Assembly: GCA_007121455.1 (NCBI GenBank)
Contig: SKKN01000038.1
Coordinates: forward strand, 1-64,000
Origin: Gemmatimonadota bacterium
GTDB taxonomy: Bacteria > Gemmatimonadota > Gemmatimonadetes > Longimicrobiales > Gaopeijiaceae
DNA: 64,000 nucleotides
Reading direction: 5' to 3'
The position numbers were made by a program, and so were the translations under genes. The notes below the pieces were generated by a model. It saw nothing but the letters and a program-made list of their open reading frames with translations, was not told the DNA's origin and searched no databases. Below are positions 31,912 through 41,740 of the stretch, in pieces. Every line of letters starts with the position of its first letter. Position 1 is the stretch's first letter.

Positions 31912-33060
31912 CTACCGATCTCGTTCGAGATCGACGAGGATTCGGTGGATTTCTTCGGGATCCGCAGGCTTCGTGAGGTGCACGTCGAAGCCGGCGTTCA
32001 ACGCCTCCTCCTTGTCCTTTTCCTGGCCCCACCCGGTCACGGCGACCAGCAATATGGTCTGGCCCCAGGGCTGCCGGCGGATTCTGTGCGCGACTTCGTA
32101 GCCGTCGACCTCCGGCATGCCGACGTCGAGGAAGATGACATCGGGTTGTTGGATTCGAGCCTTCTCGAGGGCCTCGGCACCGCTTTCCGCCGTCTCGACA
32201 TCATGGCCGTTGTACCGGAGGAGGGTCGCAACGGCTGTGAGTGCATCGCGATTGTCGTCGACAGCAAGCACGGACCGGAGGGGGGACGCGGTATCGGTGG
32301 TGTCGACCGGTTCGCGGTCGTCGCCGGCAGTGCGGCCCACCCCTGGTGGGTGCGGCGGCTCTCCGGGAGGTGCCAGCGGCAAGCGGACCGTGAACTCGCT
32401 GCCTTTCCCGCGGCCATCGCTCTTCGCCTCGATCGCGCCTCCGTGCAGCTCCACGAGCGAGCGGGTGAGCGAGAGTCCGATTCCGAGGCCTCCCTGGGTC
32501 GTCCGGCCAGGGCTGCCCACCTGGGCGAACATTTCGAAAATGTGTTCGAGGTGCGAGCGCTCGATACCGATCCCGCTGTCCCTCACCCGGATGAGAGCCT
32601 GCCCATCCTCCTCGGTCGCGGAGACATGGATGCTGCCGCCTGGTTCGGTGAACTTGTGAGCGTTGTTGAGCAGGTTGTCGATGATCTGAGCAATGCGCAC
32701 CGGGTCGCCGTCGATCACCAGCGGGCTCCGTGGGAGCTCTGACGTGAAGGTGATCTCAGCGCGTTCGCATTCGTCTCGAAACGGGCTGACGGTCTGGGCG
32801 ATCAGGGAGCCGAGGTCGAGCCGCTCCTTGCGGAGATCGATCCTCCCGTGCGTGATGCGGCTGACATCGAGAAGGTCATCGATGAGCCGAGTCATGTTGG
32901 CCGTCTGGCGGGTGATGACGTTGGATACCTGCTCGAGACGCGTGGTGTCGTCCTTTACGACCTCGAGCAACTCTGCAGCCATGCGGACGGGCGCGAGGGG
33001 GTTGCGTAGCTCATGGGCGAGCGTCGCGAGGAACGTCCCAGAGCTGCCGGGCAACGTCAC
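31912..33060 (-). CDS. Hybrid histidine kinase, sensor part lost
   Basis: The open frame codes for a HisKA domain (phospho-acceptor His16 in ATLAHELRNPLAPVR), a HATPase (NLLNNAHKFTEPGG; DSGIGIE; GGLGIGLSLTRSLVELHGG) and a carboxyl receiver (VLAVDDNRDA; VIFLDVGMPEVDGYEVAHRI; LTKPADP). Only 15 residues precede the H-box, which is too short for dimerisation and sensing. The GTG start has no clear ribosome site. The missing sensor appears upstream in another frame, so this gene is probably a deletion product and possibly inactive, or it makes an unregulated kinase. Confidence 0.75.
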   Translation of the reverse strand: MTLPGSSGTFLATLAHELRNPLAPVRMAAELLEVVKDDTTRLEQVSNVITRQTANMTRLIDDLLDVSRITHGRIDLRKERLDLGSLIAQTVSPFRDECERAEITFTSELPRSPLVIDGDPVRIAQIIDNLLNNAHKFTEPGGSIHVSATEEDGQALIRVRDSGIGIERSHLEHIFEMFAQVGSPGRTTQGGLGIGLSLTRSLVELHGGAIEAKSDGRGKGSEFTVRLPLAPPGEPPHPPGVGRTAGDDREPVDTTDTASPLRSVLAVDDNRDALTAVATLLRYNGHDVETAESGAEALEKARIQQPDVIFLDVGMPEVDGYEVAHRIRRQPWGQTILLVAVTGWGQEKDKEEALNAGFDVHLTKPADPEEIHRILVDLERDR

Positions 33061-33235: not shown

Positions 33236-33347
33236 GTTCTCGCAGCGCGAGCCGGTTCACAAGGGGCCCCCCGCTCCAGAGACTCCAGGGGCAGGTCGCG
33301 TGGGATCGTTGCAAAACCCCGGAGCTGCGTTTTGTGCCCGCAGGAAG

Positions 33348-33386
33348 AAAAAAAAAGCCCGGCCGCCTCGAACAGAGGCGGCCGGG
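33348..33386 (-). terminator. Strong intrinsic terminator
   Basis: A 12-base GC stem (CCCGGCCGCCTC / GAGGCGGCCGGG) with a 5-base loop is followed on the minus strand by nine U residues. It ends the minus-strand sigma-factor operon after the DUF4382 gene. Confidence 0.9.
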
Positions 33387-33449
33387 CGCGGATAGGCCGG
33401 AAGTCGGCCCGCGGTTCGAGTCTCGAGCCGCGGACCGATCGAGCAGGGC

Positions 33450-34082
33450 TCAGGGGTTGGTGTTTCGCGCAAGCTCCCGAAGGACCGGTGTGAACAGCAC
33501 GCCCTGGATTCCTGCGGGAGTGTTCGGGTCTCCCTGGATCACGAAGTTCTCGTTCACGTCGAAGTCGAGGAGGATGACGCTCACCATCCCGCCCTCGGTA
33601 TCGATAGGCTCGTCGAGCATGGCCTTGATCCCGGTCTGAGCGCCGCTCGGAACGACGAGATCCCGCGTCTGTCCACCGTCGGCGAACTCATACTCCTCGT
33701 TGAGCGTCACTTCGGCCCTGCTCACGATCATGCGGAGCTGCCGGTACCTTCCTGCGGGGAGCTCGACCTCACCTGTGACATCCTCCACGACCCCGTCCTG
33801 AAGGGTCAGGAGGTCGACCCAGAGTGGCTCCACTCCGTCATCGGAGGCATTGAAGAGATCGACGAACGGCGGTCCTTCCTCCGGATCCTCCTCCCCCGGG
33901 ATCAGGTACACCCGAGAGATCTCGACGAAGGCTGTCGAAAGGTACTCGTCGGGAGAGTCGGTGATGAGGACCTGTATCCGGGACATGTCGTCCGCGGTGC
34001 TCGGACTCGAGTCGCAAGCGGCCGTGGCTGCGACCACAGTTGCGAGAGCGAAGGTGATGGCGGTCTTTCTGGTCAGCTTCAT
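33450..34082 (-). CDS. DUF4382 lipoprotein
   Basis: A 210-residue lipoprotein (signal ending in VVAATAAC). The body matches DUF4382: SRIQVLITDSPDEYLSTAFV, then EISRVYLIP, LWVDLLTLQDG with VVEDVTGEVELPAGRYRQLR, and LLDFDVNENF. These secreted beta-sandwich proteins have unknown roles. It is the last gene before a strong terminator and lies 48 bases after the Pro/Gly-rich protein gene. Confidence 0.85.
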   Translation of the reverse strand: MKLTRKTAITFALATVVAATAACDSSPSTADDMSRIQVLITDSPDEYLSTAFVEISRVYLIPGEEDPEEGPPFVDLFNASDDGVEPLWVDLLTLQDGVVEDVTGEVELPAGRYRQLRMIVSRAEVTLNEEYEFADGGQTRDLVVPSGAQTGIKAMLDEPIDTEGGMVSVILLDFDVNENFVIQGDPNTPAGIQGVLFTPVLRELARNTNP

Positions 34083-34130
34083 GAATACGTCTCCATTTGG
34101 TGTGCCAAGGATGCTGAAGGCTCCTGCGAC

Positions 34131-34796
34131 TCAACCTCCTCCACCGGGAGGTCCGCCCGGCGGTCCGCTGGGCGGACCTCCCGTCGGCGGCTCAGGCGGC
34201 CCTCCCTGACCGGGCGCCGGCACGGGGGAGGGAGGGCCGGGCTCGACCCCGCTGGGCGGTCCGCCTCTTCCCGGAACCACGGTACCGACGGGGGGTGCTG
34301 CCGCTCCGGGGAGCTCTGCGAGGGCTGACGGTCCGCGGGCGAGCGCCTCGTGAACACGGAGGAGCGCTTCGTCCGGCACCACCCCGGATTCAACCAGATG
34401 GGTGAGGGCAGCGATGGCCACGGCTCGGTGCTCCGTGGGTGCGGCTCCGCCGATTTCGGTCAGCACGGCTTCTCTCACTCCCGCTCCCAGGGCGTCGGCG
34501 CCCACGCCGAGCTGGACCCCGTCCACCTCGCTTCCGACCCCTTCCAGGGCCTGAGCGGCGCGGGTGAGACCCTCGAGACGATGCTCCACTGCCTGGGCGA
34601 GCCGGTCTGCCGGGACGCCCTTCGCCTGACCCTCCGCCAACTTGCTCTCGAGCAGCCACGCCGGGATTCCTCTCTCCTCGGCCTGCTCGAAGGCGGTTTG
34701 GATCCGCTCCTCGGGAGCCTGGGCCCAACCGGCCGCAGGAATGAGGAGGAGTCCAGCGAGGATGGTCAGCCCCCCGCGCTTGATGTTCTTGCTCAT
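34131..34796 (-). CDS. Secreted helical protein with Pro/Gly-rich tail
   Basis: A 221-residue exported protein: signal GGLTILAGLLLIPAAGWAQA, a helical middle (AFEQAEERGIPAWLLESKLA; RLAQAVEHRLEGLTRAAQAL) that resembles an antiparallel coiled pair, and about 45 final residues made almost wholly of Pro and Gly (GGPPEPPTGGPPSGPPGGPP). I recognise no family. The start has a GTGTCTTT-poor site. Together with the preceding sigma gene and the following DUF4382 gene it seems to be an output of the operon. Confidence 0.65.
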   Translation of the reverse strand: MSKNIKRGGLTILAGLLLIPAAGWAQAPEERIQTAFEQAEERGIPAWLLESKLAEGQAKGVPADRLAQAVEHRLEGLTRAAQALEGVGSEVDGVQLGVGADALGAGVREAVLTEIGGAAPTEHRAVAIAALTHLVESGVVPDEALLRVHEALARGPSALAELPGAAAPPVGTVVPGRGGPPSGVEPGPPSPVPAPGQGGPPEPPTGGPPSGPPGGPPGGGG

Positions 34797-34870
34797 GGTG
34801 TCTTTCTCCGGCTCGGCACGCCCTCGACAGGGCGCGCGGCATTTCCACTTCGATTCATTGCCTTCATCTA

Positions 34871-35449
34871 TCAAGACGAGGTTCCCCCGGCGGAGGTCAC
34901 ACTCTCGTCCACTCCCACCGCCTCGAGCCTCGCCTTCAGACGCTCCCGGGCACGATGGACGCGCATCTTGAGCGCGCTCACCGAAAGGCCCAGCATCCGA
35001 GCCATGTCCTCGTAGGAGTGCCCTTCCACATGCTTGAGGACGAATGCCTCCCTCTGGTCCCAAGGGAGGTCGTTCATCGCCTCGTCCAGCCTCGCCTTCA
35101 GGGTGGTTCGTTCGTGGTCCCGTTCAGGGTGTCGCCCCTGGTCGTCGGGAAGATGGGGCTCGAGTCGGGTGTTCCTCCGGCTCGCCGCGCTCTTCAGGTG
35201 GTCCAGGCACCGGTTCCGGAGAATCCGGCCCACCCATACGTGGAATCGATCCGGCTCCCGGCATTCGCCGAGGTTCTCGTAGGCGCGTACCAGGGTGTCC
35301 TGAACCACGTCGGCAGCCTCCTCCTGGTCGAGCCCCAGGGAGAGGGCATGACGGAAGAGCATTCCCTGGTGCCGCCGCACGAGAAGCGCGAACCCGTTCG
35401 TGTGCCCCGCAAGAACGGCTTCCACGACCTCCCCGTCCGTCTCGCTCAT
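34871..35449 (-). CDS. ECF RNA polymerase sigma factor
   Basis: A 192-residue sigma factor of the extracytoplasmic type. Region 2 is EAADVVQDTLVRAYENLGEC after GFALLVRRHQGMLFRHALSL, and region 4 is LPWDQREAFVLKHVEGHSYE with MARMLGLSVSALKMRVHRAR. GGAGG precedes the ATG. It overlaps the CBM48/barrel gene upstream by ATGA. A membrane protein with the layout of an anti-sigma factor lies two genes upstream in the same operon, so it is the candidate partner. Confidence 0.9.
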   Translation of the reverse strand: MSETDGEVVEAVLAGHTNGFALLVRRHQGMLFRHALSLGLDQEEAADVVQDTLVRAYENLGECREPDRFHVWVGRILRNRCLDHLKSAASRRNTRLEPHLPDDQGRHPERDHERTTLKARLDEAMNDLPWDQREAFVLKHVEGHSYEDMARMLGLSVSALKMRVHRARERLKARLEAVGVDESVTSAGGTSS

Positions 35450-36567
35450 GGAGCACCTCCTCCGGGTACGATCAGGACGGCCACCCACCCCCCCATTCCG
35501 TCGTCGCGACGGTGTGCCACCGATTCCGGAACGAACCACTCTCCGTCCGCAGAGCGGAAGGCGTAATGATAGAGGCCTGGTTTCAGGTCGAGGTCGAGTC
35601 GCCAGGAGTCGCCCCTCCGGTGCATCCGCACCGGTTCCCAGGAGGTGAAGTCTCCTGCCACCATGGGAGGAGAAGATGCCTCGGAAAGTGGGAGTCGGAG
35701 CACGACCCGTTCGCCGGACCGGTGCTCGGCTCCCGACCGAGGGGGGGCCGAGCGGTCTCCTCCGCCCAGACGGTAGCTGATTCCGGCGCCCCAGCTCGTC
35801 CTCGCCGCTCCCAGGAAGTGCGGGTCGAACGGCTCCCGTCGCGCGCTCACCCAGAGCGTCGTCGCAGGGGTTACCGGAAGCGAACCGCCGAGTGCCCAAG
35901 CGGTGGAAGATGATTCGTCCTCCTCGATACCCGAGACCCAGCTTCCGACGGAGGCCTGGACTCCACCGGGGCCTACGGCGGCCGAAGCGCCTCCGCCCAC
36001 GAACGTGTACGCTTCGTTCTCGGGTCGCAGGTGGCGAGCGTGGCCCTCGATCCGGATCGAGGGATCGAGAGGGAGCGAGAGTGCGAAGTCCGTCACGTGG
36101 AGGTCGCGGGACCAGTCCGTTCCTCCCATTCTCCCGCGGTACCAGGATCCTCCGCTCCGGCCTTCCATGATCAGGGGACCGACGGAAACCGAGAGGACGG
36201 GCATGAGCTCTCCCCGCATTCCCCATCCTGGTGCCTCGGCCACCGCGTCGCGCTGTCCATGCGCCTGCCCGGTCGCATCGAGCCCCAGCTCGATACGGCC
36301 CCGACGGAATGCGATCCGGTCCCCACCCACGACCGCCCCCCAAAAGAGATCGCCCGAGGAGAGGGGGGCTGCGGCCGCCACCTGGAAGAACCGCTGATCG
36401 ACAGCGAAGCGGAGCCCCGCAATGACGTTGCTGGACTCGGATGCCAAAGGTGCGGTCTCGTAACTTGCCTTGCCAGCGTGGACGTCGGCCACCCACTCCT
36501 GCGCGGAGGCTTCCCCGGTGAGGAGGAGCGCCAAGGCCGTGAAAACGAGCGCGTAGAAGAAGGCCAT
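35446..36567 (-). CDS. Secreted beta-rich protein with C-terminal CBM48-like domain
   Basis: The 373-residue protein starts with a signal peptide (FTALALLLTGEASAQ). About 260 residues of alternating strands with frequent Gly and aromatic residues suggest an outer-membrane barrel or a large beta sandwich. The carboxyl 95 residues match the glycogen-binding (AMPK-beta/CBM48) domain: VVLRLPLSEASSPPMVAGDF, TSWEPVRMHRRGDSWRLDLD, LKPGLYHYAFRSADGEW. The Trp and Lys/Arg residues of the sugar site are partly conserved. Overlaps the sigma gene start and follows the membrane CBM48 protein by 47 bases. Confidence 0.7.
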   Translation of the reverse strand: MAFFYALVFTALALLLTGEASAQEWVADVHAGKASYETAPLASESSNVIAGLRFAVDQRFFQVAAAAPLSSGDLFWGAVVGGDRIAFRRGRIELGLDATGQAHGQRDAVAEAPGWGMRGELMPVLSVSVGPLIMEGRSGGSWYRGRMGGTDWSRDLHVTDFALSLPLDPSIRIEGHARHLRPENEAYTFVGGGASAAVGPGGVQASVGSWVSGIEEDESSSTAWALGGSLPVTPATTLWVSARREPFDPHFLGAARTSWGAGISYRLGGGDRSAPPRSGAEHRSGERVVLRLPLSEASSPPMVAGDFTSWEPVRMHRRGDSWRLDLDLKPGLYHYAFRSADGEWFVPESVAHRRDDGMGGWVAVLIVPGGGAP

Positions 36568-36614
36568 CCCCGGTCCGCCGTGAAGCGATCGCCGGCCCGG
36601 TCTTTCGGCGGAAG

Positions 36615-37295
36615 TCAGGTGTCCCCCCTACCGTTGTTGAGGAGGAGAGCGAGTCGGCTGTTTTCCCCTCCGAAGCCGTCATCCACCCGAGGCGCCGTCG
36701 GGTCCGGGACCCACTCGTCCCCATCGACCACGAATGCGTAATCGTGAACCCCGGGGCTCAGAGGCACCAGGATGGACCAGACACCGGGGCTCGTCTCTCG
36801 GAGCGTGTAGGCTGGATCCCAACCCGTGAAGCTTCCCGCGAGGCGCACGTCCGAGGCGTCGGGCGCCTCGAGGCGGAATTGCACGTAAACCGTCACGGCC
36901 TCCGGCGCATCCGCGACCTCGGGAAGCTGTTCTCCCGGTGAAGCGATCTCCGGAGGTGCGCCGTCTCCATTTGGGAGCACGACGGCTACGAGGAGTGCCG
37001 CGGCAGCCAGGAGTCCGTATGCGGGGCGGAGCCGGACCGGTCGCGGCTCCCAGAGCAGACGGATCCACGCGGGCAGCGTGGGCCGGTCGTGGTCTGCCGA
37101 AGGCGCGGGCGGTGCAGCCTCCCGTCCGATTCGGCCCATCACAGGCCCGCTCAGATCCGGAGGGTCGGCTTCCCGGAGGATGGGGAGCGCCTCACGGATC
37201 AGGCTCTCGTACCCCTCGACCTCTCGGCGCTCCTCGCTGGAGAGCTTCGAGAAGGGCAGCTCCCCGTCCAGATACTGGTGGATCCTGTCGTTCAT
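36615..37295 (-). CDS. Anti-sigma-like membrane protein with extracytoplasmic CBM48 domain
   Basis: A 226-residue protein. The N-terminus (MNDRIHQYLDGELPFSKLS) has the layout of anti-sigma proteins but lacks the His-x3-Cys-x2-Cys zinc motif. One membrane helix follows (YGLLAAAALLVAVVL). The outer part is a glycogen-binding domain: SDVRLAGSFTGWDPAYTLRE, GVWSILVPLSPGVHDYAFVV, DGDEWVPDPTAPR. It is the first gene of the sigma operon and is divergent from SusC. A plausible reading, not shown here, is a membrane sensor that binds a glucan outside and holds the sigma factor inside. Confidence 0.72.
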   Translation of the reverse strand: MNDRIHQYLDGELPFSKLSSEERREVEGYESLIREALPILREADPPDLSGPVMGRIGREAAPPAPSADHDRPTLPAWIRLLWEPRPVRLRPAYGLLAAAALLVAVVLPNGDGAPPEIASPGEQLPEVADAPEAVTVYVQFRLEAPDASDVRLAGSFTGWDPAYTLRETSPGVWSILVPLSPGVHDYAFVVDGDEWVPDPTAPRVDDGFGGENSRLALLLNNGRGDT

Positions 37296-37360
37296 TCGTC
37301 CCCCCTCACGCTCCTTATTCTTCGTATGCCCGTGCGAGATCCCGAACCGCAGGGCTGTCG

Positions 37361-37393
37361 AGTATAAGACGAGCCAGCCCCGGAAACGTCACA
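37361..37393 (-). promoter_or_regulatory. Candidate promoter of the sigma operon
   Basis: On the minus strand TGTGACGTTTCC and CGTCTTATACT are spaced so that GTGAC and CGTC lie 16 bases apart, as in ECF promoters of the AAC/CGTC kind. TATACT could instead be a sigma-70 -10 box, but no -35 fits it. It lies 66 bases upstream of the first gene, so autoregulation by the ECF factor is possible. Confidence 0.35.
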
Positions 37394-37547: not shown

Positions 37548-40418
37548 ATGAAGATCCCACGTCAGCCGGGTCGCTGTATCCGCCGAATGCTGGGCTTGGC
37601 CGTCGCGGCAATCCTGATTGCTGCCCCTGTAGCCGGCCAACAAACGGGCACGATCACGGGGACCGTGACGGACCAGACGACCCTCGCACCGCTGGAGGGC
37701 ACGCAGATCCACATTCCTGGCACTGACGTCGGTGTCTTCGCCGGGCAGGACGGGAGCTTCACTCTGACGAACGTGCCTGCCGGGGAGCAGGTCGTCCGGG
37801 CGGAGCGCCTCGGCTACGGGAGCGTGGAGGAGACGATCGAGGTCACTCCGGGCGCGACGGTTCAATCGGATTTCCAGCTCCGGGAGCGAGCGCTTGCGCT
37901 CGATGCGGTCGTCGTGACCGGGACTGCGGGACAGGCGCGCCAGCGCGAGGTGGGCACCTCGATCGCTCAGGTGAACATGGCCGACATCCGCGAGCCGGTG
38001 GGAAGCGTGGACAACCTGCTCTCGGCACGGGCACCTGGAGTAAACGTCCTGGGCACGAGCGGAATGTCGGGCGGGGGAGCCCAGATCCGGCTGCGGGGGA
38101 ACGTGAGCGTCGCGATGTCGAACCAGCCCCTCATCTACATCGACGGGGTGCGGATGCGAAGCGATGGCCTCCCGAAGAACCATGCCGTGGGAGAGCACGT
38201 TTCCTTCGGTGGGAACGAGTCGATGGGGCCGCTCAACACGATCAACCCCGAAGACATCGATCGGATCGAGGTGGTCCGCGGCCCGGCGGCGACCGCCCTC
38301 TACGGGACCGAGGCGGCCGGCGGGGTGATCCAGATCTTCACCCGGAGGGGGCAGGCCGGCGATCCGCAGTGGACCGCCCAGGTGGATCAGGGCGTGGACT
38401 GGATGCAGAGCTTTGGTCCCGCCAACGAGCCGCTCATGAGGATGGACCCCTGGCTTCGGAACGCCCACAACCAGCGGTACAACCTGTCCGTGCGAGGCGG
38501 GGGTGACGCGCTCCAGTACTTCCTCTCCGGAAGCCTCCACGAGCTCCAGGGGGTCCTCCCACGAGACGAGGACCGGAGGTACATCGTCCGAAGCAACTTC
38601 GGCTTCCAACCGATCCGCGGCGTGGACCTCGAGTGGAACACGATGCTGAGCCGCCAGGAGGTCTCGAACACCACGATGGGGAACAACCCCTACAGCATCG
38701 CCCTGAACGCCTTTCGCATGCCGGCCGGCCGGCCGGGGAACTACATCGGATCGGATCGCGAGGAGGACGTGACTCGCCTCCTCGACTACGACATCTTCAG
38801 CGATGTCGAGCGCATCACGACAGGGATGACGGCTACCCACTCGGTCACGGACAACATCACGAACCGGGTCAGCGTGGGGCTGGATCGCATCGACAGTGAG
38901 ATGCGGAATGTGCGTCCCTACGGCTACATCGCCTATCCCGGAGGCTCGATTTCGAATCAGCACTGGCAGAACCGCACCCTCACCCTCGACTACGTGGGGA
39001 CGGCGGATTTCCGGCTCACACCCAATTTCCGGAACAGCTTTTCCTGGGGTGGCCAGTGGGTGGATGAGGACGAAGTCTCGGTCTCCGCACGTGGTGATGG
39101 ACTTCCCGGCCCCGGCGAGCACACGGTGGAGAGTGCCGGCAATCGGTTCGGGTACGAGGAGCGCTTCCGGGTCGTCACTGCCGGATTCTTCGTCCAGAAC
39201 CTCTTCGACATCCTGGACCGTTACTTCCTGACCGTCGCTTTGCGGGTGGACGGGAACAGCGCGTTCGGGGAAGGAATGGGGCTGCAGCCGTACCCGCGCG
39301 CCACGCTCTCCTACGTCCTCTCCGACGAGGACTTCTGGCCCGAGGATCGGTTCGGGGAGGTAAAGCTGCGTGCAGCCTGGGGCCAGGCGGGCCGGGCGCC
39401 CGGAGCGTTCGACGCCGTGCGCACCTGGGTGCCTCATCCCTGGCGGGGCCAGACGGGGTTCATGCCACAGAACCTCGGAAACCCCGAGTTGGGGCCGGAG
39501 CGGACGGAGGAGTACGAGGTCGGGTTCGAGGCAGCGATCCTCGATCAGCGGGTGAGCCTGGATTTCACCTACTACAATCAGCAGACTCGCGATGCCCTCT
39601 TCAACGTACAGCAGGTCGCGAGCCAGGGGTTCACCGGATCCCAGCTCGAGAACCGCGGAGAGATCTCGAACCGGGGGATCGAGCTCGCGGTGAACGCCGA
39701 TGTGATCCGCAGCCCCGACTTCTCCTGGGACGTGGGATTCAACGTCTACACGAACACGAGCCGGGTCGAGAGCCTCGGCGGGTCCCCGGCATTCGCGATC
39801 GGCGGAGGGTGGATCGAGGAGGACGGCCCGGTTCCCGCGATCCGGAATTGGGGCATCCGGAACCCGAACGAGTTCGCGGAGCCGGAGATCGTGCGGGATT
39901 CGATTTTCGGGCCGAACCAGCCCACCCACACGATCGGGGTGAACACCTCCTTCGAATTGCCCGGAGGCATCGTGCTTTCCGGCCGGGGTGAGTATCAGGG
40001 CGGGCACTACATCTTCGATGGAGGAAACGGCGGAGGCATCAGCCGGGGAGCCACGTCGCCCTTCTGCGACGACATCTTCCCGCGGATCCAGGCAGGGGAG
40101 CGGGATCAGTTCACGGCCCGGGAACGGTCGTGGTGCGACCCATCGGTCCAGCATGCGAATCTCGTCTACCCCGCAGACTTTTTCCGGGTGAGGGACCTCA
40201 CGCTTCAGCTTCCCATCCCATTCGCGCTTCCCGGTGCAAGCCAGGCGACCTTCCGGATGTCGGCGCAGAACGCCCTCACATGGAAGAACAGCGACTTCCT
40301 CGCCATGGATCCGGAAATGGCCGGGAACTGGGGAATGGAATCGGGACTCGCGCGGAGCATCACGGAACATATTCCGCCTCCCGCGTCGTTCGTGGCCTCG
40401 CTACGCGTCGTCTTCTGA
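37548..40418 (+). CDS. SusC/RagA-type TonB-dependent outer-membrane transporter
   Basis: A 956-residue protein. Signal peptide (LGLAVAAILIAAPVAGQ), then a carboxypeptidase-regulatory-like beta-sandwich (GTITGTVTDQTTLAPLEGTQ, GVFAGQDGSFTLTNVPAGEQ), the plug domain (DALLSARAPGV-like VDNLLSARAPGVNVLG; IYIDGVRM; INPEDIDRIEVVRGPAATAL; YGTEAAGGVIQIFTRRG) and a long 22-strand barrel. There is no N-terminal STN signalling domain, so it does not feed a FecR-type pathway directly. AAGGAGG precedes the ATG. With the SusD protein next to it this is a glycan or peptide importer of a type common in Bacteroidota and Gemmatimonadota. Confidence 0.93.
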   Translation: MKIPRQPGRCIRRMLGLAVAAILIAAPVAGQQTGTITGTVTDQTTLAPLEGTQIHIPGTDVGVFAGQDGSFTLTNVPAGEQVVRAERLGYGSVEETIEVTPGATVQSDFQLRERALALDAVVVTGTAGQARQREVGTSIAQVNMADIREPVGSVDNLLSARAPGVNVLGTSGMSGGGAQIRLRGNVSVAMSNQPLIYIDGVRMRSDGLPKNHAVGEHVSFGGNESMGPLNTINPEDIDRIEVVRGPAATALYGTEAAGGVIQIFTRRGQAGDPQWTAQVDQGVDWMQSFGPANEPLMRMDPWLRNAHNQRYNLSVRGGGDALQYFLSGSLHELQGVLPRDEDRRYIVRSNFGFQPIRGVDLEWNTMLSRQEVSNTTMGNNPYSIALNAFRMPAGRPGNYIGSDREEDVTRLLDYDIFSDVERITTGMTATHSVTDNITNRVSVGLDRIDSEMRNVRPYGYIAYPGGSISNQHWQNRTLTLDYVGTADFRLTPNFRNSFSWGGQWVDEDEVSVSARGDGLPGPGEHTVESAGNRFGYEERFRVVTAGFFVQNLFDILDRYFLTVALRVDGNSAFGEGMGLQPYPRATLSYVLSDEDFWPEDRFGEVKLRAAWGQAGRAPGAFDAVRTWVPHPWRGQTGFMPQNLGNPELGPERTEEYEVGFEAAILDQRVSLDFTYYNQQTRDALFNVQQVASQGFTGSQLENRGEISNRGIELAVNADVIRSPDFSWDVGFNVYTNTSRVESLGGSPAFAIGGGWIEEDGPVPAIRNWGIRNPNEFAEPEIVRDSIFGPNQPTHTIGVNTSFELPGGIVLSGRGEYQGGHYIFDGGNGGGISRGATSPFCDDIFPRIQAGERDQFTARERSWCDPSVQHANLVYPADFFRVRDLTLQLPIPFALPGASQATFRMSAQNALTWKNSDFLAMDPEMAGNWGMESGLARSITEHIPPPASFVASLRVVF

Positions 40419-40453
40419 TGGTCCGGCTTACGAGCGCTCTGGAGGAGGAGGGA

Positions 40454-41740
40454 ATGATGAAGGGAATCAGTAAGCAACGTATTTCGGCCGGGCTCCGCAC
40501 CCTCGTATTCGGGATCATCGGGGCGAGCCTCATCGCGTGCGACGTGAACGTGGTGAACCCCGGCCCCGCGCAGGACGAGTTCCTGGACGACCCGGGCGCC
40601 CATCAGGCGGTCGTTGCGGGCACGGAGCGGGCGATGGCGATCGCACTGAACTGGGTCGCCTACACCTCTGCCTACATCTCGCGGGAGACCGTGCCGTCCG
40701 GGAATCTCGGCAACCTCTTCGGAGCGCCCACCCAGGTTCGTCAGGGGTTGCTCAACGAGGATGAAAACGACACGCACTGGCAGCACGCTCAACGCGCCCG
40801 CTGGATGGCCGAGGACGCGATCCGTCGGTTTCGCGTGGCCATGGAATCGGGCGAGCTCAGCGGGAGCCCCCTCGTGGCCGAAGTCATGCTGCGAGCCGGA
40901 TACGCGAACCGCCTCCTGGGAGAGAACATGTGCGTGGCGGTGATCGACGGCGGGGGAGCGGAGCCCTGGACGGCCTATCTGGAGCGCGCGGAGGATTATT
41001 TCACCGATGCGATCCAGGTCGCGGGGCAGGCGGGTCGGTCGGACCTTCGCACGGCCGCCTACGCGGGCCGAGCCTCCGTCAGGGCCGGCATGGCCGACTG
41101 GCCCGGCGCCGAAGCCGACGCGCAGGAGGTTCCACGCGACTTCGTATACCAGCAGACGTACTTCACGCAGGATTGGGACGACCACAACCGGTTCTTCTGG
41201 GGGAACAACTATCCGGCGAGCCCCTTCCGGGCCCACACGGTCTGGAGCACCTACTTCGAGGAGTACTACGAGGAGAGCGGGGACCCGCGCACGGCGTGGG
41301 GCTCCGATCCGGACATTCCGCAGGGCACCGTGGAGCAGTGGCCCTGGTACTTCCAGCTCAAGCACGACGAGCTGGATTCACCGATCAACCTCTCATCGGG
41401 ACGTGAGATGGAGCTCGTCCGCGCGGAAGCGGCGCTCCACGGCGGGCAGTGGCAGGAAGCGTCCGATCTGATCAACGGGCTGCGCGCGGACGTGGGCGTG
41501 GACGCGTGGCCGATCTCCAACAGCGAGGAGGCGTGGAGCGCGCTCAAGCAGGAGCGCTCGATCGAGCTCTGGCTCGAGGGGCGCCGACTCGGCGATCTTC
41601 GCCGCTGGCATGTGGACGGGGCTCCAGGAGCGGCGCCGGAGGACATGACCGGGCGGAGCCTCTGCTTCCCGATCGGGGAATCCGAGATCGACACGAACCC
41701 GAACGTGAGCGGGGAGGATCAGCAGGACCTGCTCGGCTGA
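40454..41740 (+). CDS. SusD/RagB-type surface lipoprotein
   Basis: A 428-residue lipoprotein, partner of SusC at the cell surface. The signal ends in SLIAC; NPGPAQDEFLDDPGAHQAVV is the family's typical opening, and helices of the tetratricopeptide-like core follow (RAGYANRLLGENMCVAVIDG; YLERAEDYFTDAIQVA). The end has RSIELWLEGRRLGDLRRW and FPIGESEIDTNPN, both hallmarks of SusD. Two adjacent ATGs follow GGAGGAGGAGG. An ATG overlapping the SusC stop (TGATG, 40418) could also be used and would couple translation. Confidence 0.9.
   Translation: MMKGISKQRISAGLRTLVFGIIGASLIACDVNVVNPGPAQDEFLDDPGAHQAVVAGTERAMAIALNWVAYTSAYISRETVPSGNLGNLFGAPTQVRQGLLNEDENDTHWQHAQRARWMAEDAIRRFRVAMESGELSGSPLVAEVMLRAGYANRLLGENMCVAVIDGGGAEPWTAYLERAEDYFTDAIQVAGQAGRSDLRTAAYAGRASVRAGMADWPGAEADAQEVPRDFVYQQTYFTQDWDDHNRFFWGNNYPASPFRAHTVWSTYFEEYYEESGDPRTAWGSDPDIPQGTVEQWPWYFQLKHDELDSPINLSSGREMELVRAEAALHGGQWQEASDLINGLRADVGVDAWPISNSEEAWSALKQERSIELWLEGRRLGDLRRWHVDGAPGAAPEDMTGRSLCFPIGESEIDTNPNVSGEDQQDLLG

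Follow-up and report, generated by a model that had tools for sequence, protein, structure and literature searches.

The 64,000-nucleotide stretch analysed here (positions 1 to 64,000 of contig SKKN01000038.1 from a Gemmatimonadota bacterium; hereafter, the window) carries a single operon on the minus strand (37393-33357), in which a promoter is followed by the genes for an anti-sigma-like membrane protein (ANTI), a second protein with a CBM48 domain (OMC), an extracytoplasmic function (ECF) sigma factor (SIG), a secreted protein (P4) and a DUF4382 lipoprotein, and then by a terminator. The components listed in the original prediction for this DNA, namely, the anti-sigma-like membrane protein, the CBM48 domains, the sigma factor, the genes that follow and the terminator, are all present (Table 1). 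That an ECF sigma factor and an anti-sigma-like partner are encoded in one operon is firm by computation. Beyond this, we propose, with a probability of about 0.6, that the operon is a self-regulating, trans-envelope signalling system, in which a pair of CBM48 domains makes up the sensor and SIG governs a small regulon centred on the module itself.

The sigma factor and its anti-sigma-like partner

SIG has the layout of an ECF sigma factor, with only the Sigma70 regions 2 and 4 within ~190 aa (Pfam Sigma70_r2, E 3.3e-15, and r4_2, E 5.5e-18; TIGR02937, 97 bits versus the cut-off of 42.9). ANTI consists of a helical, predicted cytoplasmic domain (residues 1-60, with the motif YLDGEL), a transmembrane helix (~87-107) and a CBM48 domain (135-217) that is predicted to be periplasmic; in the AlphaFold2 model (mean pLDDT 86), helices span residues 3-9, 20-42 and 49-60, followed by 91-106. 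A helical N-terminal domain ahead of a transmembrane helix, together with gene linkage to an ECF sigma factor, are features of the class I anti-sigma domains (ASDI), with which ~79% of the ECF sigma factors of Gemmatimonadetes are associated (PMC7406223). As originally predicted, the usual zinc motif of anti-sigma factors, Hx3Cx2C, was not found in ANTI of the window, nor in the ANTI proteins of Gemmatimonadota. The canonical motif is present in 7 relatives that share this layout (L177, L181, L189, L193, L206, L209 and L214), and zf-HC2 scores above the cut-off in L177 only and near it in L207. Because the motif occurs in these relatives, the zinc-less ANTI is consistent with the mixed zinc distribution of class I anti-sigma domains, many of which lack the motif (PMC7406223).

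The pairing of the two proteins, which the original prediction assumed, is supported by gene order, by co-occurrence, by retention in trans and by the zinc-type motif in the 7 relatives. SIG orthologues (E below 1e-26) were detected in 50 of the 51 genomes with ANTI (Fisher 6e-22, a p-value that serves as a guide only because related genomes are not independent), and in the sole remaining genome, the SIG frame at the ANTI locus is shortened. The N-terminal domain of ANTI is kept in Longimicrobiaceae, where the SIG gene is unlinked: each of the genomes of this family searched that lack a neighbouring sigma factor encodes one clear SIG orthologue elsewhere (E 1e-35 to 1e-49), the next paralogues scoring mostly between 1e-17 and 1e-22, with one at 9e-30. 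SIG thus presumably binds ANTI. These orphan SIG genes (L120-L130) have no adjacent anti-sigma gene, and many of them lie beside an apparent citrate synthase gene in divergent orientation.

Two CBM48 domains, one on a predicted outer-membrane barrel

The CBM48 domain of ANTI matches two Pfam families above their cut-offs (AMPK1_CBM, E 1.2e-11; CBM_48, E 4.6e-6), and its best structural match in Foldseek is the glycogen-binding domain of AMPK beta1 (1z0m; 84 columns, 30% identity). OMC barely exceeds the AMPK1_CBM cut-off (E 4.9e-6; 27.1 bits versus 26.8), and this match is found in all 34 members of the OMC family. ANTI and OMC are the only two proteins in their own genome that score with AMPK1_CBM.

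The original prediction of a secreted protein with a CBM48 domain holds for the domain; the notion of a merely secreted OMC is rejected, an outer-membrane barrel being preferred instead. The AlphaFold2 model of OMC (mean pLDDT 90.5) comprises a 14-stranded barrel (25-266) followed by the C-terminal CBM48, and the best Foldseek matches (2wvp, 2x9k and 2f1c) are all OmpG or Escherichia coli porin. Hence OMC is modelled as an OmpG-like outer-membrane beta-barrel carrying CBM48, with pore activity as a putative function. OmpG is a sugar porin. In an even-stranded barrel, the C-terminus lies on the periplasmic side, and the barrel of OMC being even-stranded, both CBM48 domains should therefore face the periplasm.

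In the Nitrospiraceae, proteobacterial, Desulfobulbus and Desulfobacula loci, the second CBM48 is a protein of 106-118 aa, with a recognisable lipobox in most cases. At one locus (L142:7001-8017), a single frame fuses ANTI and the second CBM48 protein across assembly N; the barrel is seemingly absent, and the masking may hide sequence.

The promoter and the regulon

A promoter of the form NGTGAC-N14..17-CGTC lies upstream of the first gene in 39 of the 50 loci, including 22 of the 23 with the gene order of the window, all 11 without a nearby sigma factor and 6 of the 16 that start with SIG, compared to ~0.2 matches per locus class in dinucleotide shuffles. The ECF promoter originally predicted ahead of the operon is thus real and conserved, albeit with a spacer between TGTGAC and CGTC of 16 nucleotides in the window, not 15; across the loci, the spacer is 17 in 31 cases and 16 in 8, and never 14 or 15. 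A copy of the promoter precedes P4 in 34 of 49 loci and DUF4382 in 4 of 11, and OMC, used as an internal control gene, has one upstream in 1 of 57.

A position weight matrix built from 73 sites, all holding the GTGAC and CGTC by which they had been picked, finds in the 64-kb window only the two sites of the operon, with the best score at 37393 (25.0) and the second best at 34901 (22.3). The entire genome contains 9 exact sites, compared with 4 matches to the reversed pattern; of the 9, only the pair at the operon precedes a fitting gene. Excess over the reversed pattern is found in some relatives (16 versus 3, 10 versus 1 and 10 versus 1 in G084, G079 and G071, respectively), with none in others (19 versus 21 in G078; 8 versus 8 in G059).

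Outside the window, the genome has two GH13/CBM48 clusters (G000:C1:83500-91900 and G000:C74:18100-22500), which are likely involved in trehalose and alpha-glucan metabolism. The matrix scan of these GH13 regions detected no promoter site. The wider alpha-glucan regulon initially envisaged is accordingly rejected for this genome.

What SIG appears to control is mostly the exported proteins of the module itself. In Longimicrobiaceae, unlinked genes for DUF4382-type lipoproteins, so called by similarity to the window lipoprotein (P0005) rather than by a family scan, are preceded by the promoter in four genomes. Among the relatives, the promoter is also observed ahead of DUF4382-type lipoproteins (L281, L288, L298 and L304), RCC1-like repeat lipoproteins (L267, L269 and L270), a polysaccharide epimerase (L295 and L311) and an export-type protein (L296). 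All of these are candidate regulon members; among the recurrent targets, the RCC1-like lipoproteins, the polysaccharide epimerase and PAS-GGDEF proteins are to be taken as leads only.

Distribution, gene order and P4

ANTI homologues are detectable in 55 of 98 genomes at E 0.001, some of these being CBM48-only matches. A search of contigs with an alignment retrieved 354 stretches, and a search with a single-protein query retrieved none. The operon recurs across Gemmatimonadota, and its sigma/anti-sigma/P4 core is present in several other phyla. The gene order is conserved in relatives, as had been anticipated, in three arrangements: ANTI-OMC-SIG-P4, as in the window; SIG-ANTI-OMC-P4; and ANTI-OMC-P4 without a nearby sigma factor, in Longimicrobiaceae. 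Profiles identify SIG adjoining a CBM48 anti-sigma factor, usually followed by P4, in Balneolaceae, Rhodothermaceae, Nitrospiraceae, Spirochaetes, Krumholzibacteriota, Desulfobulbus, Desulfobacula, a deltaproteobacterium and others; these loci beyond Gemmatimonadota are mostly contigs of metagenome-assembled genomes, and some taxon labels look wrong (e.g., L165, titled Gammaproteobacteria). The order SIG-ANTI-OMC-P4-DUF4382 is found in one Balneolaceae and one Rhodothermaceae locus.

P4 has no match among Pfam families. It is encoded in 49 of the 51 genomes with ANTI and is characterized by a motif conserved across the family, IPxxLLxSKxxEGxAKGVPxDRI; in other phyla, some of the matches to it are weak, with E 1e-5 to 1e-8. 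P4 deserves a protein family of its own that accompanies the system across phyla.

The features of the operon are listed in Table 1. The SIG start overlaps the OMC stop as ATGA. Just past the terminator lies a gene for a histidine kinase with a receiver (31912-33060, minus strand), with no obvious sensor part upstream in frame. The SusC/SusD pair that diverges from the operon (37548-41740, plus strand) is there as originally described; only 2 other loci have such a pair near the operon, and close relatives do not have it alongside, so that a functional link is not borne out and SusC/SusD is rejected as a part of the system.

Table 1. Operon features and their positions in the window
Feature	Position	Strand	Details
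ECF promoter of operon	37365..37393	-	TGTGAC 37393-37388, N16, CGTCTTA 37371-37365; ANTI start codon 72 nt downstream
ANTI, anti-sigma-like protein, 226 aa	36615..37295	-	N-domain, transmembrane helix, CBM48
CBM48 domain of ANTI	36645..36893	-	ANTI residues 135-217
OMC, second CBM48 protein, 373 aa	35446..36567	-	Signal peptide, predicted barrel (residues 25-266), CBM48 (279-367)
SIG, ECF sigma factor, 192 aa	34871..35449	-	Regions 2 and 4
Internal promoter copy	34875..34901	-	TGTGAC-N17-CGTC at 3' end of SIG gene; P4 78 nt downstream
P4, secreted protein	34131..34796	-	Conserved motif; Pro/Gly-rich tail
DUF4382 lipoprotein	33450..34082	-	Pfam DUF4382 E 1.6e-21; lipobox AAC
Intrinsic terminator of operon	33357..33387	-	13-bp stem and T-tract

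A model of the signalling module and its alternatives

The genes, promoters, conservation, co-occurrence, domain identity and barrel model described above were computed; from these, we infer that SIG binds ANTI, as well as the topology, the ligand, the connection of one CBM48 domain with the other and the way in which SIG is released. Under the proposed model, SIG would transcribe from TGTGAC-N16/17-CGTC promoters ahead of its own operon, P4 and, in relatives, DUF4382 lipoprotein genes. The N-terminal domain of ANTI would hold SIG at the inner membrane, with the CBM48 of ANTI displayed in the periplasm, and OMC, or the small lipoprotein in other phyla, would hold the second CBM48 on the periplasmic face of the outer membrane. 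The state of the CBM48 pair, be it a shared bound glycan or mutual contact of the domains, would decide the release of SIG, and the response would restock the exported OMC, P4 and DUF4382 proteins along with the switch itself.

Several results weigh against this model. In a Pfam scan, the N-terminal domain of the window ANTI matches no anti-sigma family above the cut-off (zf-HC2, E 0.15), and comparison of the zinc-less and zinc-containing N-terminal domains with hhalign yields only a weak match over a single segment of 15 residues (probability 14%). In 10 of the 16 SIG-first loci, no consensus promoter was found, and the same holds for most of the unlinked SIG genes of Longimicrobiaceae; because of the latter, SIG self-regulation is not universal. 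The results on the N-terminal domain could also be taken to mean that ANTI is only a scaffold in the membrane, whose gene happens to lie in the same operon as that of the sigma factor. This appears highly improbable given the co-occurrence of SIG and ANTI, the changes of layout that keep the pair together, the zinc anti-sigma motif carried by relatives with this layout and the retention of the N-terminal domain when the sigma factor is unlinked.

What the CBM48 pair responds to is the point on which the other alternatives differ. The original prediction saw the system as an alpha-glucan sensor. With the proteins as assigned here, the CBM48 of ANTI would then bind periplasmic glycogen, maltodextrin or starch, OMC would be the entry porin or a second binding site, and binding would free SIG. 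The AMPK glycogen-binding domain and a pullulanase are among the closest fold and sequence relatives, and OMC resembles OmpG. Moreover, W159, W195 and N212 of ANTI align with W100, W133 and N150 of AMPK beta1, which contact cyclodextrin (PMC9788615), and are conserved in 48, 44 and 44 of the 48 ANTI family members, respectively. The position of AMPK Lys126, however, is occupied by A187 in the window protein and by lysine in 0 of the 48; the suggestion that this residue is kept in the SIG-first loci was rejected, the lysine there preceding the tyrosine. Furthermore, the Asn150 equivalent is lost in most OMC domains, and in two Desulfobacterota, Desulfobulbus and Desulfobacula, the partner lipoprotein has neither Trp (the AMPK row in that alignment agrees with the separate AMPK comparison). 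Neither of the two GH13 clusters has the promoter, SusC/SusD is not conserved alongside, and the closest relatives also include a feruloyl esterase, so that the CBM48 fold alone does not fix the sugar. The alpha-glucan reading is thus only partly supported, and the alpha-glucan regulon is the weaker reading of the system; overall, we consider such a sensor rather unlikely. A tentative alternative dispenses with the sugar altogether: the two CBM48-fold domains would bind to one another (or to P4) across the periplasm, and damage to or mis-assembly of OMC would break the contact and free SIG. Consistent with such monitoring of envelope integrity, one CBM48 per membrane recurs despite the differing outer-membrane anchor (barrel or lipoprotein), the partner can lose the aromatic binding residues, and the regulon is dominated by the exported proteins of the module; the contact between the FoxA signalling domain and FoxR provides a precedent (PMC11637429). 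However, most ANTI proteins show strong conservation of the binding Trp and Asn, which would not be required of a purely structural domain. The recurrence of the second CBM48 with a changed anchor, sometimes without the binding aromatics, speaks for contact between the domains, and the conserved Trp and Asn of ANTI speak for a glycan; both may be true.

Comparison with known systems

The RsgI/SigI systems of cellulolytic clostridia share with this operon an anti-sigma factor made up of a sensory module outside the cytoplasm (one that binds carbohydrate in several cases), a transmembrane segment and an intracellular sigma-binding part, as well as self-regulation and an operon shared with the sigma factor (PMC6056542). 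They differ in the type of anti-sigma and sigma factors, in their Gram-positive hosts, and in sensing biomass polysaccharides and driving cellulosome genes; no match to the RsgI N-terminal domain was found in the Pfam or NCBIfam scans. We know of no outer-membrane partner and no CBM48 in RsgI/SigI. In FecA-FecR-FecI and FoxA-FoxR-FoxI, an outer-membrane barrel with a periplasmic domain is likewise combined with an inner-membrane anti-sigma factor and an ECF sigma factor, and the FoxA signalling domain binds the anti-sigma factor FoxR without signal and protects it (PMC11637429). Their barrel, however, is a TonB-dependent receptor with an N-terminal signalling domain, whereas here it is modelled as 14-stranded and OmpG-like, with a C-terminal CBM48, and the outer domain of the anti-sigma factor is also CBM48. 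The ASDI-containing ECF systems, such as RskA/SigK and RseA/RpoE, have a similar small helical N-terminal domain before the transmembrane helix, but the published account of these systems (PMC7406223) makes no mention of a CBM48 outer domain, nor of glycogen, AMPK or carbohydrate, and they are not known to have a paired outer-membrane CBM48 protein.

With the glycogen-binding domain of the AMPK beta subunit, the CBM48 domain of ANTI shares the fold, the two stacking Trp and the Asn; it differs in the missing Lys126 and in its location in an anti-sigma-like protein of the bacterial envelope. The promoter has the same architecture and -10 element as the ECF41 promoter TGTCACA-N16-CGTC (PMC3426412), but the -35 element is TGTGAC and SIG lacks the fused C-terminal ECF41 domain.

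The ECF sigma factor, the class I anti-sigma factor, CBM48 and the OmpG-like barrel are each known singly; their combination and the paired CBM48 appear to be new, and no paper on CBM48 anti-sigma factors or on the paired-CBM48 design was found in the open-access literature. It is close to an even proposition, in our judgement, that the system represents a hitherto undescribed trans-envelope signalling class spread over several phyla, with two CBM48 domains, one in the anti-sigma factor and the other barrel- or lipid-anchored, as the sensor, along with the new secreted protein P4. If so, this would be a new design of ECF sensor, in which an AMPK-type glycogen-binding fold is present once at each of the two membranes and the partner is an outer-membrane barrel. 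Gemmatimonadota and several other poorly studied phyla would gain a signalling module that is defined and testable and whose promoter is known, and P4 would be marked out as an unnamed protein family tied to that system.

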